From an uncultured Atopobiaceae bacterium (GTDB lineage Bacteria > Actinomycetota > Coriobacteriia > Coriobacteriales > Atopobiaceae), in the NCBI GenBank assembly GCA_944320975.1, contig CALUJM010000006.1:1-64000 (forward strand): 64,000 bases of DNA, read 5' to 3'. The translations under genes were made by a program, and so were the position numbers. The notes below the pieces were generated by a model that saw only the letters and a program-made list of their open reading frames with translations, ran no database searches and was not told the origin of the DNA. This document shows positions 18,832 through 62,407 of the stretch, piece after piece. Position 1 is the first letter of the stretch. Each line of letters starts with the position of its first letter.

Positions 18832-18936
18832 CTGCCGATTGGGGACGGGTTATTTCCGTCAGACGAAACGGGACAGGTTTGACAAGCAAACCTGTCCCGT
18901 TTCGTCTGACGGAAATAACCCGTCCCCAATCGGCAG
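18832..18936. repeat. Perfect 50-bp palindrome (GGGGACGGGTT type)
   Basis: Left arm 18832-18881 and right arm 18887-18936 are exact complements over 50 bp with a 5-base loop, ACAAG. The arms contain GATTGGGGACGGGTT and CGGGACAGGTTT. A direct copy of GCCGATTGGGGACTG precedes it. It ends 7 bp before the beta-glucosidase stop codon. Confidence 0.95.
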
Positions 18937-21999: not shown

Positions 22000-22034
22000 G
22001 CTGTGACAATTTAACCTGTCCTCATTGTCACAGC
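22000..22034. repeat. TGTGACAAT...ATTGTCACA palindromic repeat (family C)
   Basis: GCTGTGACAAT stem, loop with AACCTGTCCTC, complementary stem ATTGTCACAGC. It overlaps the 3' end of the DUF523-PNP gene, whose TGA stop is read from TGTGACA. Confidence 0.9.
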
Positions 22035-25737: not shown

Positions 25738-25772
25738 ATGATCCAAAAGGGGACAGTCCCCTTTTGGATCAT
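25738..25772. repeat. GGGGACAGTCCCC palindrome
   Basis: A 35-bp palindrome: ATGATCCAAAAGGGGAC-A-GTCCCCTTTTGGATCAT. It is upstream of the NYN gene and directly beside family B copy B2. Confidence 0.92.
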
Positions 25773-26949: not shown

Positions 26950-27027
26950 GCGTGTGACAATTAGGACAGGTTAAATTGTCACACAGCAGAGCGTGTGACA
27001 ATTTAACCTGTCCTAATTGTCACACGC
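26950..27027. repeat. Perfect 35-bp palindrome (family C)
   Basis: Arms 26950-26984 and 26993-27027 are exact complements with an 8-base loop, AGCAGAGC. Each arm is itself the unit TGTGACAATTAGGACAGG followed by TTAAATTGTCACA. It ends 8 bp before the DegV stop codon. Confidence 0.95.
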
Positions 27028-29889: not shown

Positions 29890-30291
29890 GGCAGACTCCC
29901 GTCAACGCGTTCTTATCGTGCGCCTCTCCCAGCTGACCTGGTCTTTGCCCCCACACCCGCGCACCGGGGACGTCGCTTGCGGCGCCGCGGCGCCTCCACT
30001 GTTGCCCCTCTCGCCCGCGAGGCCGGATGCCTCATGAGTATGACGGGCGGTGCGACTTACCTCTAGGACGAGCCATGATCGCCCGCACGCGCACGCACGG
30101 GCTTACGTGGATCCCTTTGCCCTCGTCTGGCATGGACTAGGGCGGTGCCGGGGGCGCCGCCCGCAACCACAGACCTGGTCGAGACGTCTGTCAAGTATAA
30201 CCCCTCCCGGCAGGACCCGGGGGCGGGGGACAAATACCGGGGGGCGGGAGGCGGGAGCGTCGTCCCGGAGACGTTCGCCCCGCCGCCGCGG
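29890..30291. other. 400-bp gap without a recognised gene
   Basis: Upstream of the lipoprotein gene (minus strand) and behind comF. On the minus strand there is a TTATACT box at about 30196-30202, followed by stems ACAGAC/GTCTGT and GGGCGG/CCGCCC, so a structured leader is possible. I could not match it to a riboswitch class or to RNase P, tmRNA or SRP RNA. One GTTCTTATCG variant of the common word is at 29909. Confidence 0.4.
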
Positions 30292-56376: not shown

Positions 56377-57174
56377 CTACTCCTCGTCGAGGGCGGCCAC
56401 GATCTCGTCGGTCATGTCCATGGTGTGGTAGACGTTCTGGACGTCCTCCAGCTCGTCGAGGCGGTCGACGAGGCGCTGGACCTTCTTGGCGTCGGCCACG
56501 GAGACCTGCGTCGGGGTCGTGGGGACCATGGTGAGCTCGGAGCCCTTGACCTCGATGCCCTGCTCCTCGAGGGACTTCTGGACGTCCTGCATCTTGTCGT
56601 AGGCGGTCCAGACGATCCACTCCTCGCCGGCGTCCTCGTAGTCCTCGCCGCCGGCCTCGGCCACGGCCATCATGAACTCGTCCTCGTCGACGGCGTTCTC
56701 CTTGTCGGCGACCTTCTTGTCCTCGGACTTGATGATCTTCTCGACAGCGATGGAGCCCTTGCGCTCGAACTGGAACGCGACGGAGCCGGAGGTGCCGAGC
56801 GAGCCGCCGGAGTGGGAGAAGGCGGAGCGCACGTCGGCGGCGGTGCGGTTCTTGTTGTCGGTCAGGCAGTCGACGTAGACTGCCACGCCGGCGGGACCGT
56901 AGCCCTCGTAGGTGATCTCGGCGTAGTTGGCGGCGTCGGAGCCGGAGCCAAAGGCCTTGTCGATAGCGGCCTTGATCTTGGCGTTGGGCATGGAGACCAT
57001 ACGGGCGCGGGCAACGGCGGCCGCGAGGGTGGCGTTGTTGTCCGGGTTGGGGTCGCCGCCGAGCTTGGCCGCAACGGTGATGTTGCGGGAGAGCTTGGAG
57101 AAGAGCGACGAGCGCTTGGCGTCGATGGCGGCCTTCTTGTGCTTGGTGGTTGCCCACTTAGAGTGTCCGGACAT
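56377..57174 (-). CDS. YebC/PmpR-family transcription or translation regulator
   Basis: 265 residues: MSGHSKWATTKHKKAAIDAK at the start, the RNITVAAKLGGDPNPDNNATL region and the long DADKVQRLVDRLDELEDVQN-like C-terminus. Members regulate transcription and help ribosomes over proline stretches. ATG 57174 with AAGGAG 6 bases away; the second ATG at 57180 is too close. Confidence 0.93.
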   Translation of the reverse strand: MSGHSKWATTKHKKAAIDAKRSSLFSKLSRNITVAAKLGGDPNPDNNATLAAAVARARMVSMPNAKIKAAIDKAFGSGSDAANYAEITYEGYGPAGVAVYVDCLTDNKNRTAADVRSAFSHSGGSLGTSGSVAFQFERKGSIAVEKIIKSEDKKVADKENAVDEDEFMMAVAEAGGEDYEDAGEEWIVWTAYDKMQDVQKSLEEQGIEVKGSELTMVPTTPTQVSVADAKKVQRLVDRLDELEDVQNVYHTMDMTDEIVAALDEE

Positions 57175-57289
57175 GTACATCTCCTTCTTGCCCCGCTTGC
57201 GGCTGCCCTCCGCGCGAGGCCCTCGACAATGATTCATGGCATGAAACATGCCTACGATATCCAAGTGTCGCTGGGTTGTAAAGGGCCGT

Positions 57290-57386
57290 GGCGACGGGGG
57301 CGTGTGACAATTAGGACAGGTTGGATTGTCACATCGAACCGATGTGACAATCCAACCTGTCCTAATTGTCACACGCCCCCGTCGCC
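57290..57386. repeat. Perfect 47-bp palindrome (family C, extended)
   Basis: Left arm 57290-57336, loop AAC, right arm 57340-57386; the arms are exact complements over all 47 positions. The inner part is the TGTGACAATTAGGACAGG unit. The outer GGCGACGGGGGC on both sides is not part of the other family C copies. Confidence 0.96.
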
Positions 57387-57390
57387 GCAC

Positions 57391-58101
57391 TCACAGGTCG
57401 TACTTGGCAACGACGCGGCGAATCGCGCGGCCCCAGGGCTGCCAGATCGCCGCGAGAAAGACCGCCGTCGCCGCGCCGTGCGTCACGTCGAGCGGCAAGC
57501 TCGCCGCGCAGGCAGCGAGCGCGGCAGGCCAGGTGAGCGGCTGGACGTAGCCGAGAACGTGGTAGCCGTTCAGGATGAGGCCGTAGACCAGGCCGGAGAC
57601 TATGCCCCAGCCGTAGAGGACCGGCGTGCGGGAGAGCAGGTCCTTCTCCCCCAGGAGACCGCCGACGTAGCCCACGAGACCCCACGCATACATCTGCCAG
57701 GGCGTCCACGGCCCTTGGCCGAAGAAGAAGTTCGAGAGCAGGGCGGCGAGCGCACCCACCACAAATCCGCTGCGCCGGCCGAGCGCCGCACCCGCCACGA
57801 TGGCGATCGCCGAGACCGGCTTGACGTCCGGGAGCGGGGCAAAGAGCACCCGACCCGCGGCGGCGAGCGCGGCGAGCACGGCTGTGGGCATGAGCTGGCG
57901 AAGCGCGGGGCGCGAGGCCTCGAAGCCCGCGAACATGAGGCCGACCGCAAGCGCTGCCAGGACCAAGGTGAGGCCGGCCGTCGCACGCACGCCTGCGGCC
58001 GCGAGGGCGACCATGGCAACGGGCACGACCACGAGCGCGGGCGCCTCGGCGGCGCGAATGAGACCGGCGAGCGGCCGGCGTGTTTGCTCATCGACAATCA
58101 T
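57391..58101 (-). CDS. ECF transporter substrate-binding (S) component
   Basis: 236 residues with about six membrane helices and the pattern of CbrT-like S components (AIAIVAGAALGRRSGFVVGA, the following LLSNFFFGQGPWTPWQMYAW). This subunit captures the vitamin; the window's EcfT/EcfA and the upstream riboswitch suggest cobalamin. It starts at ATG 58101 without a clear ribosome site and is divergent from the next gene. Confidence 0.8.
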   Translation of the reverse strand: MIVDEQTRRPLAGLIRAAEAPALVVVPVAMVALAAAGVRATAGLTLVLAALAVGLMFAGFEASRPALRQLMPTAVLAALAAAGRVLFAPLPDVKPVSAIAIVAGAALGRRSGFVVGALAALLSNFFFGQGPWTPWQMYAWGLVGYVGGLLGEKDLLSRTPVLYGWGIVSGLVYGLILNGYHVLGYVQPLTWPAALAACAASLPLDVTHGAATAVFLAAIWQPWGRAIRRVVAKYDL

Positions 58102-58679: not shown

Positions 58680-60068
58680 TTACCAGAGCCACGAGTTGGC
58701 GAAGAACTCCGCGGTGGACTCGGTCAGCGTGATTCCACCGTCGAACATAAGCGAGACGCGGTCGGCGACGGCGCGGACAAACCCCATGTCATGCGTGGCG
58801 AGAAGGACGGTCGCACCGTCATCGCGAACCTCTGCCAGGCGCCGCGCGACCCGCTCGCGCTCCGCTCGGTCGAGCCCCTTGGTCGGTTCGTCAAGCAGCA
58901 GGAGACGCGGGCGCACGAGCAGCAGCTTCTCCAGCGCGAGCAGCTGCTGCTGCCCGCCAGAGAGGTCGTAGGGGTGGCGGTCTGCCGCGTCTTCGAGGCC
59001 GATGCGTGCGAGGGCCACGTCGACCTCCGCGCACCCGTATCCGCCGGCTCGCGACCACGCCTTGAGCTCATCTGCCACGGTCTCGCAGGAGAGCAGCGCC
59101 TTGGGCGCCTGAGGCAGGAGCGCCTGCGAAGCGGCGAGCCCGTTGCGCACACGACCGCGAGCGGGTCGCACCACGCCGGCAAGCGCGGAGAGCAGCGTGG
59201 ACTTGCCGCAGCCGTTTGACCCCACGAGCGCGCGGACCTCCCCCTCCCCCACCGTGAGGTCGAGCTCGCGCAAGACCCAGCGAGCGTCGCGGGCGTAGCG
59301 GTACCAGACGTCGTCCGCGAGCAGTGCGCCCTTCCCGATTGTGCGAGCATGGGCCGCCGGGGCCTCCAAGGGGGGCTCTGTCGCGACTTCGGAGAGCGGG
59401 GCCATGCGCACCGACCCGCCCTCGAGGGCAAACGCGCAGGTGGCGTAGTCGGCCATCGTCCAGGGCGCGTGCGTTGCCACCACCACGGTGACGCCGAGCT
59501 CGCGGTTTGCGCGGAAGAGCAGCGAGAGGAAGTTCTTCTCGGCCAGAGGATCGAGCATGCTCGTGGGCTCGTCGAGCAGAAGCAGGCGCGGGCGCATCGC
59601 GAGCGCCGAAGCCAGGGCGAGTACCTGGCGCTGCCCGCCGGAGAGCTCCGCGGTGCGCGCGCGAAACCACGGCTCGATGCCGAGGAAGTTGCAGGTCTCG
59701 GCCACGCGCCGGCGCATCTCGGGCTCGGGCACGCCGAGATTCTCCAAGCCGAAGGCCAGCTCGTGCCACACGGTGTCGCAGACGATCTGCGCGTCCGGGC
59801 TCTGGAAGACGTATCCGACGGCGCGGGCCGAGGCCTGCGCGCCGAACTCGTGCGGGTCCGTCCCGAAAACGCGGACCGAGCCGCCGAGCCGGCCCGCGGG
59901 CGCGATCTCGGGCTTGGCCAGGCGCAGAAGCGTGGACTTGCCCGAGCCCGTTGCACCAACGAGCAGGGCAAACGCGCCTTCGGGCACCGCAAACGAGGCG
60001 TCGAGAAGGACGGGCGACGTCGCGCCCGCATACGAGAAGGACACGCGGTCGAACTCAAGCGCGCTCAT
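58680..60068 (-). CDS. ECF transporter ATPase, fused EcfA-EcfA'
   Basis: 462 residues with two complete ABC ATPase units: Walker A GATGSGKST and GSNGCGKST, signatures LSGGQRQVLALASAL and LSGGQQQLLALEKLL, Walker B LLLLDEPTSM and LLLLDEPTKG. One polypeptide thus replaces the EcfA/EcfA' pair. AAGGAG is 8 bases before ATG 60068. Overlaps the repeat-extended end of ecfT by 14 bp. Confidence 0.92.
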   Translation of the reverse strand: MSALEFDRVSFSYAGATSPVLLDASFAVPEGAFALLVGATGSGKSTLLRLAKPEIAPAGRLGGSVRVFGTDPHEFGAQASARAVGYVFQSPDAQIVCDTVWHELAFGLENLGVPEPEMRRRVAETCNFLGIEPWFRARTAELSGGQRQVLALASALAMRPRLLLLDEPTSMLDPLAEKNFLSLLFRANRELGVTVVVATHAPWTMADYATCAFALEGGSVRMAPLSEVATEPPLEAPAAHARTIGKGALLADDVWYRYARDARWVLRELDLTVGEGEVRALVGSNGCGKSTLLSALAGVVRPARGRVRNGLAASQALLPQAPKALLSCETVADELKAWSRAGGYGCAEVDVALARIGLEDAADRHPYDLSGGQQQLLALEKLLLVRPRLLLLDEPTKGLDRAERERVARRLAEVRDDGATVLLATHDMGFVRAVADRVSLMFDGGITLTESTAEFFANSWLW

Positions 60069-61026
60069 CGGACGTCTCCTTTGGTCGCGGGGGGACGGGT
60101 GAGACAGTGGGGACGGGTTCGTTTGTCTCATGAAGAGCATGAGACAAACGAACCCGTCCCCACTGTCTCACCCGTCCCCGCTGTCTCACCCGCTCCACGT
60201 TCGGAAGCGCCATCAGCAGAGCCCACGGCACGTAGGCCCACCACGGTCCGAGCTCCCCCATCGTGGGGTAGAAGCGCCAGCTCGCGCACAGCTGCCACGC
60301 ACACGCCGCGCAGACGACGAGCAGCCCCGCGACGCCTGCAAGCGCGGCTGCGTCGCGCCCGCGCAGCCGCTCGAGCCGATAGTTCGTGCGCGGGCGGCCC
60401 GATTCCCAGCCGCGGGCCCGCATGGCGTCCGCGCGCTCGACCGAGTCCTCGAGCGACCAGGTGAGCAGCATCGTCGAGGTGCGCGCGAGCTCGTCGCGAA
60501 GCCCCGGGCGCTGCCCGGAGGCCGTACAGGCGGCGACGGTCGCGCGCACCGTCTTCGCCCTGCCGAGCATCTGCGGCACGAGCTGCGACGCCATCGACGC
60601 CACGAGCGGAAGGGTCCGCGCGCGTCGCTCCGACAGCGCGAGCAGGCGGTCCTGGGTCAGCACCGTTGCAGCCCCCTCGAACCACAGCACGGTGGCCACG
60701 AGCAGCGCGCCCATCGTCGCGCCGTACGCGAGGCTCTCCGCGTAGACGCTGCGCGGCCCCACCTTGAAGAGCAGCGTGGAGCCCGATGCCGAGAAGAACG
60801 GGTTGAGCACGCATACGAGCGCGAGCAGGGGCAGCTGCCAGGCGAGCCCGCGCGCCGTCGCGCGCACGCCGCGCGCGAGCAGCGAGAACGCGCACGCGCC
60901 GCCGAGCGACAGCGCCACGAGCACGGGCTGAACCGCCAGCATCGTGAGCACGGCCGTCCCTGCGAAAAGGGTCGCGGGGACGGCCACGTGCCAGGAGTCG
61001 AAGGGTGTGGGACGCGCGGGCGCCAC
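60055..61026 (-). CDS. ECF transporter transmembrane component EcfT, tail encoded by a palindrome
   Basis: 323 residues, several membrane helices, with the EcfT coupling motif (AMRARGWESGRPRTNY, the Ala-Arg-Gly triplet). It joins the ATPases to the S component. The start is GTG 61026 (MAPARPTPFDSW) since no ATG is available before the homology. After VPWALLMALPNVER the frame runs into the 42-bp palindrome, which codes for VRQWGRVRLSHALHETNEPV and neighbours, ending 14 bp inside ecfA. The native C-terminus was probably about 35 residues shorter. Confidence 0.82.
   Translation of the reverse strand: MAPARPTPFDSWHVAVPATLFAGTAVLTMLAVQPVLVALSLGGACAFSLLARGVRATARGLAWQLPLLALVCVLNPFFSASGSTLLFKVGPRSVYAESLAYGATMGALLVATVLWFEGAATVLTQDRLLALSERRARTLPLVASMASQLVPQMLGRAKTVRATVAACTASGQRPGLRDELARTSTMLLTWSLEDSVERADAMRARGWESGRPRTNYRLERLRGRDAAALAGVAGLLVVCAACAWQLCASWRFYPTMGELGPWWAYVPWALLMALPNVERVRQRGRVRQWGRVRLSHALHETNEPVPTVSPVPPRPKETSDERA
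60091..60179. repeat. Perfect 42-bp palindrome (GGGGACGGGTT type)
   Basis: Arms 60091-60132 and 60138-60179 are exact complements with loop AAGAG. Unit: GTGAGACAGTGGGGACGGGTT followed by CGTTTGTCTCAT, a stem-loop whose loop has the same GGGACGGGTT as the palindrome at 18.9 kb. It lies inside the ecfT reading frame. Confidence 0.95.
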
Positions 61027-61052
61027 GTTCTTCTCGCCGCTTCTCTCGCTGG

Positions 61053-61535
61053 CTACTCGGTGAACTCGGTCACGTAGGTCCAGGTGATGACGTCGCCGTC
61101 GGCGACCTCGAGCTGGGAGCAGCCGACCTCCGCCATCTCGCCGTTGACCTCGAACATCCAGCCGCTCATGTCGCCGAAGTCCCCGCCGGCGAGGCCGTTG
61201 ATGCCCTGGACGTACATACCGTAGTCGGAGTCGGATGCGTTGACGTCGGCGCCGGTCGCGACCAGCGCGTCGTAGACCGTGGAGCCCTCGACGAGCTCGA
61301 CGTCGTAGCTCGAGAGCTCGCCCTCGCCGGCCGTGGCGTCGATCTCCACCGTGGCCTCGACCGCGGCCTGCTGCTCCTGACCGGCGTCGGAGGTTGCGTC
61401 GCCGCCGGTCGCGGCCGGTGTGCCGCCGCAGGCAGCGACGGTCAGCGCCAGCGCGACGGCCGCGGCGCCCGCGGCGAGCCTCGTGAGCAGGTTCTTCTCG
61501 GCGTGGTTCTTCTGTGCAAGGTTGCGCATGGACAT
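61053..61535 (-). CDS. DUF4430 lipoprotein (transcobalamin C-terminal-like)
   Basis: 160 residues. Signal peptide with lipobox LTVAACGG. The mature part is a DUF4430 domain (YDVELVEGSTVYDALVATGA, GWMFEVNGEMAEVGCSQLEV), which is related to the cobalamin-binding C-terminal part of transcobalamin. As the first gene of the ECF operon it may deliver the vitamin to the S component. ATG 61535 follows GAGGCACC. Confidence 0.85.
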   Translation of the reverse strand: MSMRNLAQKNHAEKNLLTRLAAGAAAVALALTVAACGGTPAATGGDATSDAGQEQQAAVEATVEIDATAGEGELSSYDVELVEGSTVYDALVATGADVNASDSDYGMYVQGINGLAGGDFGDMSGWMFEVNGEMAEVGCSQLEVADGDVITWTYVTEFTE

Positions 61536-61559
61536 GGTGCCTCACTCTCTCCCTGGAAC

Positions 61560-61690
61560 CAGGGCGTCGGGAGGGCAAGGCGAGGCGGGCGACCGGGCGG
61601 TCGCCGCCTCAAGACACAGCCGGGTGCTGATCCGGAGTCAAACCGGAGCCGTTTTCAACATGACGTAGCAGCTGCGCGAGCCGTGCCCTC
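61560..61690 (-). promoter_or_regulatory. Probable cobalamin riboswitch
   Basis: On the minus strand, TTGAAAACGGCTCCGGTTTG, then ACTCCGG, AGCACCCGGCTGTG follows the order of conserved blocks in the cobalamin riboswitch core (AAUUGAA, GGUGnnAnUCC, GC-CCCGC-ACUGU). A GGTTCCAGGG stem follows before the lipoprotein start. The outer stem was not resolved. It fits the ECF/DUF4430 operon it precedes. Confidence 0.55.
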
Positions 61691-61693
61691 TAT

Positions 61694-62407
61694 TCAAATG
61701 GAGTCCCCAGTGTAGCAGTCTGTCAATTGGGGACTGTCCCCAATTGACAGAAGCGAGGGACGCATGAGGTCGGCCAGGCGGCGGAAGCCCTCCTCGGTAA
61801 GGTGCAGCCCGTCGGCGTAGAGCTCGGCGCGCGTGCGGCCCCGCTCGTCGAGAAACGCATCGAAGACGTCGAGGAAGCTCACGCGCCCGTCGCGGATGAG
61901 CTCGCGCTCCTGGTCCAAGATCATGCGCAGGAGGTCGTTGCTGCGCGCGCACGGCTTGGCGCAGTAGCCGTCGAGCTCCTCCACGCACGGAAGCGGACTC
62001 CACAGCAGCACGCGCGCCTCCGGCAGGTTGCCGAGCACGAGGTCGACGAGGTCGCGCACGCTGCAGGCGACGTCGCGCGGACTCGCCATGACGGTGTTGC
62101 CCAGGTCGTTGGTGCCCACCATCAGCACGACCAGACGCGGGCGGCGCTTGATGACCGCCTCGTCTGCAAGCCAGAGCAGCTCCTCGGAGACGGCGCCCGC
62201 CACGCCGCAGTTCTGGACGCCCGGCAGCTCCGGGAAGAGCCGCTCCACGGGAAAGAGCTGCGTCAGCGAGTCGCCGTAGAAGACCACGCCGCCGGGCTCC
62301 GCGGCATCGGTGGCGCGCACGATCTCGAGCATGCGCTCCAGTTGCGGGCCACGCAGCTGGAAAAAGCACGGGTTGTAGGCCATGTTCTCGCGCACGTTCT
62401 TCTCCAT
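61694..62407 (-). CDS. SGNH/GDSL-family hydrolase, tail encoded by a palindrome
   Basis: 237 residues. Catalytic Ser in FYGDSLTQLFP (block I), the oxyanion Asn in VGTNDLG (block III) and the Asp-His pair in DGLHLTEEG (block V). Likely an esterase or acetylhydrolase of cytoplasmic type, no signal peptide. ATG 62407 (MEKNVREN) is taken; a TTG within a repeat is 21 bases upstream, and neither has a clear ribosome site. The last residues, SIGDSPQLTDCYTGDSI, read through a 31-bp palindrome, so the original end near RRLADLMRPSLL was lost. Confidence 0.85.
   Translation of the reverse strand: MEKNVRENMAYNPCFFQLRGPQLERMLEIVRATDAAEPGGVVFYGDSLTQLFPVERLFPELPGVQNCGVAGAVSEELLWLADEAVIKRRPRLVVLMVGTNDLGNTVMASPRDVACSVRDLVDLVLGNLPEARVLLWSPLPCVEELDGYCAKPCARSNDLLRMILDQERELIRDGRVSFLDVFDAFLDERGRTRAELYADGLHLTEEGFRRLADLMRPSLLSIGDSPQLTDCYTGDSI
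61720..61750. repeat. GGGGACTGTCCCC palindrome
   Basis: Perfect 15+1+15 palindrome CTGTCAATTGGGGAC-T-GTCCCCAATTGACAG. It lies in the translated 3' end of the GDSL hydrolase gene. Confidence 0.93.

Follow-up and report, generated by a model that had tools for sequence, protein, structure and literature searches.

A perfect palindrome ahead of yebC in Thermophilibacter resembles a REPIN whose arms were probably matched by self-templated copying, at times with flanking sequence

The window, a stretch of 64,000 nucleotides from the genome of an uncultured Atopobiaceae bacterium of the genus Thermophilibacter, contains a long perfect palindrome at 57290-57386. The palindrome has the stop codon of an ECF transporter S-component gene on one side and, on the other, a promoter-like site that precedes a gene of the yebC/TACO1 family. 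The features of the locus are as follows.

56377-57174, minus strand: yebC/TACO1-family gene, downstream of the slot that holds the palindrome
57254-57282, minus strand: promoter-like site TTTACA-17-TATCGT ahead of yebC
57290-57386, no strand: whole palindrome, 47-nt arms, loop AAC at 57337-57339
57290-57303, plus strand: outer arm GGCGACGGGGGCGT, locus-specific and outside the family core (copy comparison)
57304-57332, plus strand: REP unit 1, GTGACAATTAGGACAGGTTGGATTGTCAC, itself a small hairpin (family comparison)
57333-57343, no strand: linker ATCGAACCGAT, 11 nt, self-complementary (linker comparison)
57344-57372, minus strand: REP unit 2, inverted, exactly equal to unit 1 (family comparison)
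57373-57386, minus strand: mirror copy of the outer arm (copy comparison)
57391-58101, minus strand: ECF transporter S-component gene, stop codon 5 bp from the palindrome

A repeat search showed that the two 47-nt arms (57290-57336 and 57340-57386) are 100% complementary around a loop of 3 nt, exactly as stated in the preliminary description of this sequence. The 97 bp are composed of two inverted 29-nt REPs with the 11-nt linker between them, framed on either side by 14 locus-specific bases that mirror each other. The mirrored GGCGACGGGGGC(GT) beyond the repeat core is real, as is its absence from the other copies compared. The loop at 57337-57339 owes its shortness to a chance self-complementarity of the linker ATCGAACCGAT. 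Linkers with at least 4 such pairs occur in 2 of the 42 doublets of the family described below, which is about the chance expectation; thus, the linkers are not being perfected, whereas the arms are.

On the minus strand, the RNA of 57290-57386 is predicted to fold at −103.6 kcal/mol, far beyond chance (shuffle mean −41.6, z −16.2), and no RNA family was found at the site by Rfam. Such strong folding directly after a gene would suit selection for an RNA hairpin, either a terminator or an mRNA stabiliser, that keeps the arms paired. We consider this explanation extremely unlikely, since the hairpin has no T run, no terminator-like site (and no intrinsic terminator) was found within 57100-57500, and 47 bp of perfect pairing exceed any known need. 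Moreover, one related doublet lies in-frame within a gene, and changes present in both arms stay Watson–Crick, where selection on RNA would tolerate G-U pairs.

Sequence comparison assigned the palindrome to a dispersed family of REP doublets, family C, with at least 42 distinct members in this genome (a lower bound; the genome search gave at least 40 scored candidates). Family C doublets consist of 29-nt units in inverted orientation, separated by linkers of 8-12 nt, and can be folded into one hairpin. Similar doublets or single REPs are present in 8 other genomes of the genus versus none of the 29 genomes of other genera. Among the sites compared, the given copy and most others are intergenic, and one doublet (L174:9399-9467, at C1:15898 of genome G000) lies in-frame within a conserved gene, where the relatives instead have 24 bases that include GGACAGG; this motif recurs in the REP loop. 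Several REP families of the genus have GGACAG in their hairpin loops, and no GTAG/CGTC tag was seen in them. In family C, this tag was found neither within the 29-nt core nor at the hairpin foot, where bases outside the core are not conserved between copies.

The genome encodes five RAYT-like proteins (L058-L062), each beside a different hairpin repeat. All five genes score above the cut-off for PF01797 (Y1_Tnp), and their translations contain HVHLL, with the HUH motif HVH, and RYIHQNP, with the downstream tyrosine of YIHxNP. Scores of 66.9 and 71.1 bits lie below the curated cut-off of 80 for NCBIfam NF047646, the copy on contig C37 (L058) is frameshifted, and the one RAYT tested by sequence matched no solved structure. 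The gene at 94.6 kb (C2:94641) is located between a family C doublet and a family C single REP. Family C thus combines inverted REPs with a short linker, many dispersed copies, and a RAYT gene that has family members on both sides, features that fit REPINs. Judged by these features, the element is most likely of REPIN type and moved by a RAYT, an HUH transposase, encoded elsewhere in the genome.

Perfect as it is, the palindrome at 57290-57386 is not the longest in the window, which also contains the following elements.

18832-18936: perfect palindrome, 50-nt arms, 5-nt loop, from another repeat family with the motifs GGGGACGGGTT and GGGACAGG
22002-22031, no strand: single REP unit of the given palindrome's family
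26950-27027, no strand: second doublet of the given palindrome's family, 35-nt perfect arms
60091-60179: perfect palindrome, 42-nt arms

The last of these overlaps the 3′ end of a minus-strand ORF (60055-61578), and the C-terminus of the encoded ECF T-component-like protein appears, from its sequence, to be specified by the repeat. Short palindromes with a loop of nearly zero are found around GGGGACAGTCCCC or GGGGACTGTCCCC at 25738-25772 and 61719-61751, and a raiA RNA is located at 29924-30183 on the minus strand (141.7 bits, gathering score 101.3).

The preliminary description had raised the possibility of an assembly error, to which the draft state of the window's genome (40 contigs, 91.6% completeness) lends some weight. 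An artefact is nevertheless next to negligible as an explanation, because this genome alone has the family at 42 distinct places, with differing mirrored arms, because other assemblies of the genus contain it too, and because the architecture recurs in many independent copies, including those in single-contig assemblies.

Comparison of the two 29-nt arms within each doublet revealed that they are identical in 41 of 42 cases. Arms taken from different doublets differ at 1.30 positions on average, and the observed matching was equalled in none of 10,000 shuffles. A variable dinucleotide is always the same in both arms of a doublet. Outside of it, five substitutions are present in both arms and two in one arm only, and those present in both preserve Watson–Crick pairs. 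It had been proposed that perfect symmetry reflects either recent formation or active correction. These data support active matching of the arms, whereas recency alone leaves the paired changes unexplained, unless every variant arose from an inverted duplication of its own. Core and linker variants common to several copies show that the doublets do spread as units, and they are what might be expected if the long palindrome transposed whole, outer arms included, and owed its perfection only to recent arrival. That the outer arms vary between copies, and that paired substitutions would not be expected from recency, makes this account very unlikely. Shared descent of already perfect units does contribute to arm identity, as judged from the sequences, yet alone it would not pair a new substitution. 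A separate palindrome, at L208:1950-2068 with its orthologs L207 and L211, has been kept in three species; its arms are matched in G010 (AAAAA on both sides) and mismatched in G006 and G017 (TTTT versus AAAA), making it a candidate for observing arm correction directly.

The symmetry often continues beyond the REPs. Across the 42 copies, the perfect mirrored run outside the REPs has a mean length of 10.9 nt, compared with 0.85 nt for left flanks combined with the right flanks of other copies. It reaches at least 12 nt in 16 of 42 copies and in none of the null pairs. With its 14-nt run, the given palindrome is among these 16, and its mirrored GGCGACGGGGGC thus exemplifies a feature seen throughout the genome. 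The outer arms differ from copy to copy, and at about half of the copies the symmetry reaches locus-specific flanking sequence.

Orthologous sites were compared in four relatives. Automated scoring of 97 site pairs for native arms on one or both sides suffered from too much noise and left most pairs unclassified; individual loci were therefore judged by alignment boundaries, with flags read by eye, several of which turned out to be sites common to one relative only. At L190:5327-5443, the left arm in G017 carries GGCGTTCTGTAG, an inverted copy of the final codons, stop included, of the convergent right-hand gene, whereas G006 and G010 have the coding end on the right only and nothing like GGCGTTCTGTAG on the left. 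At L173:11685, a single REP precedes GCCCCCCAGTTGGTGGG in G017, and G000 has a doublet with an imperfect mirror of the GCCCCCCAGTTGGTGGG flank on its left. Similarly, at L187:1021, the GGCCGC native to the right side of the G017 copy is mirrored in that copy. These alignments indicate that flanking sequence was copied by fold-back into a new arm. The alternative, loss of an arm in the relatives, is less economical where a coding end is concerned.

Other loci have a different appearance. At L178:1327, G000 carries a nested palindrome whose outer stem, as GCGTCG-loop-CGACGC, is all that G010 has there. At L173:6697, GAGTAG forms the end of each of the two convergent genes. By their sequence, both loci favour insertion into a pre-existing hairpin. 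In its general form, this explanation holds that hairpins already in place, such as terminators or older REP palindromes, receive REP doublets from a RAYT in their single-stranded loop, so that the outer arms are remnants of the target. Several arms with partial REP units in nested order are consistent with it, as is the central position of REP dimers in longer palindromes of three other bacteria, Anabaena variabilis, Thermomicrobium roseum, and Halothiobacillus neapolitanus (Di Nocera et al. 2013, PMC3733652). It explains neither the mirroring of flanks that are native to one side, a coding end among them, nor the presence of the same core substitutions in both arms, and we regard it as unlikely to be the main explanation. 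Fold-back copying and insertion into older hairpins probably both occur.

At the yebC locus itself, comparison of about 30 species showed that the content of the slot is variable, that it frequently holds another inverted repeat, and that the slot ends just upstream of the yebC promoter. The partner arm of GGCGACGGGGGC in the hairpin is GCCCCCGTCGCC. Among the species compared, neither a GGCGACGGGGGC hairpin nor a clear one-sided copy is present in the slot, a result that speaks against a pre-existing hairpin here and equally yields no precursor state for the palindrome. Two candidates were rejected: a conserved hairpin at the slot, as no relative has GGCGACGGGGGC there, and a 9-nt partial match in G030 (CCCGTCGCC), as it is within the shuffle range. 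The proposal that the palindrome grew into its neighbourhood is thus supported at the level of the family, by flank symmetry at about half of the copies and by one-sided flanks copied at other loci. The stronger wording that this particular palindrome must have grown is not sustained, given the empty comparison at its own slot and the loci that look pre-existing. Its outer 14 nt either grew by copying or represent an older hairpin that was entered.

SbcCD is a hairpin nuclease that normally destroys such hairpins. A search for it, as suggested by the preliminary description, found SbcD (TIGR00619) above the cut-off in none of 31 genomes of the genus, while 13 of 14 control genomes responded, and the best SbcC-like match in the genome is SMC. 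Since several sister genera of the family do have SbcD (E 1e-35 to 1e-47), its absence looks like a loss. We surveyed 40 to 100 kb per genome for palindromes with perfect arms of at least 30 nt, in small samples and with kinship ignored. There were none in 800 kb from eight SbcD-positive genomes, 11 in 564 kb from seven Thermophilibacter genomes (4 of them within the window chosen for this finding), and none in 300 kb from three SbcD-less genomes of other genera. A simple rule equating SbcD absence with palindromes was rejected, as the three latter genomes and 4 of the 7 Thermophilibacter samples have no arms of this length. SbcD absence is therefore at most permissive, with a source of REPs also needed, and it may explain why palindromes are tolerated in the genus.

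On this evidence, we think it probable that the palindrome is a REPIN perfected by self-templated copying, sometimes together with its flank, in a genus that seems to have lost SbcCD and would therefore make or keep palindromes more easily. Doublets and single REPs are both seen in the genus, and we infer that a doublet, or even a single REP, would fold back in single-stranded DNA, for example at a replication fork. The polymerase would then copy the second arm from the first, at times continuing into the adjoining flank, before rejoining the original template. Such copying would erase differences between arms, which are observed to match, and would add an inverted copy of one flank on the opposite side, letting the arms grow outward; flanks are observed to be mirrored where relatives have the native sequence on one side only. 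With SbcD undetected and SbcCD seemingly lost, intermediates and products would survive, and palindromes would be more easily made or kept, if the loss is indeed causal. By analogy, spread between sites would be due to RAYT, whose gene is flanked by family copies and which would have to be active. A broader version, which we put forward tentatively, is that REP hairpins in this apparently SbcCD-less genus seed repeated fold-back inverted duplication, that a longer perfect palindrome can arise at any REP through capture of its flank, coding ends included, and that replication template switching contributes as much as transposition to the creation and maintenance of REPINs.

Several components of this proposal are already known, namely REPINs, compensatory changes, REP dimers within palindromes, and template-switch correction. 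REPINs with RAYTs are REP doublets that form hairpins, with compensatory arm changes noted (Bertels and Rainey 2011, PMC3116915). The elements described here share with them the inverted doublet, the short linker, the dispersed copies, and a RAYT flanked by the same REP, but differ in that the arms are perfect over the whole REP and the symmetry often continues into locus-specific flank. As in the elements of PMC3733652, REP dimers stand at the centre of longer palindromes; there, however, the surrounding palindromes share a consensus, and imperfect dimers were suggested to escape SbcCD, whereas here the outer arms are mostly locus-specific and no GTAG/CGTC tag was seen. Template-switch correction of quasipalindromes is established in E. 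coli (PMC7202029), and an origin of hairpins by template switching has been described (PMC8794818). In both, one arm templates the other to give perfect inverted repeats, but here this would extend across a dispersed repeat family, with capture of flanks. Yeast deficient in Mre11/Sae2 forms fold-back inverted duplications primed at short inverted repeats (PMC10622511). Impaired Mre11, the homologue of SbcD, and inverted duplication of flanks are common to both situations, although the yeast events are chromosome-scale and follow breaks, while those considered here span tens of bases. What appears to be new is the capture of flanks across the genome, together with its coincidence with SbcD absence: in the open-access literature, we found no description of locus-specific flank capture on such a scale or of this coincidence, and no paper joining Olsenella with REP sequences.

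The genus bears on the question of how REPINs arise and how their symmetry is maintained. It offers natural before/after pairs, in which a single REP, a doublet, and a doublet with mirrored flank can be compared, and its natural SbcCD-minus background would make the roles of template switching, RAYT, and SbcCD separable by experiment. Palindrome growth in bacteria would thereby be linked to the fold-back duplications of Mre11-deficient yeast.
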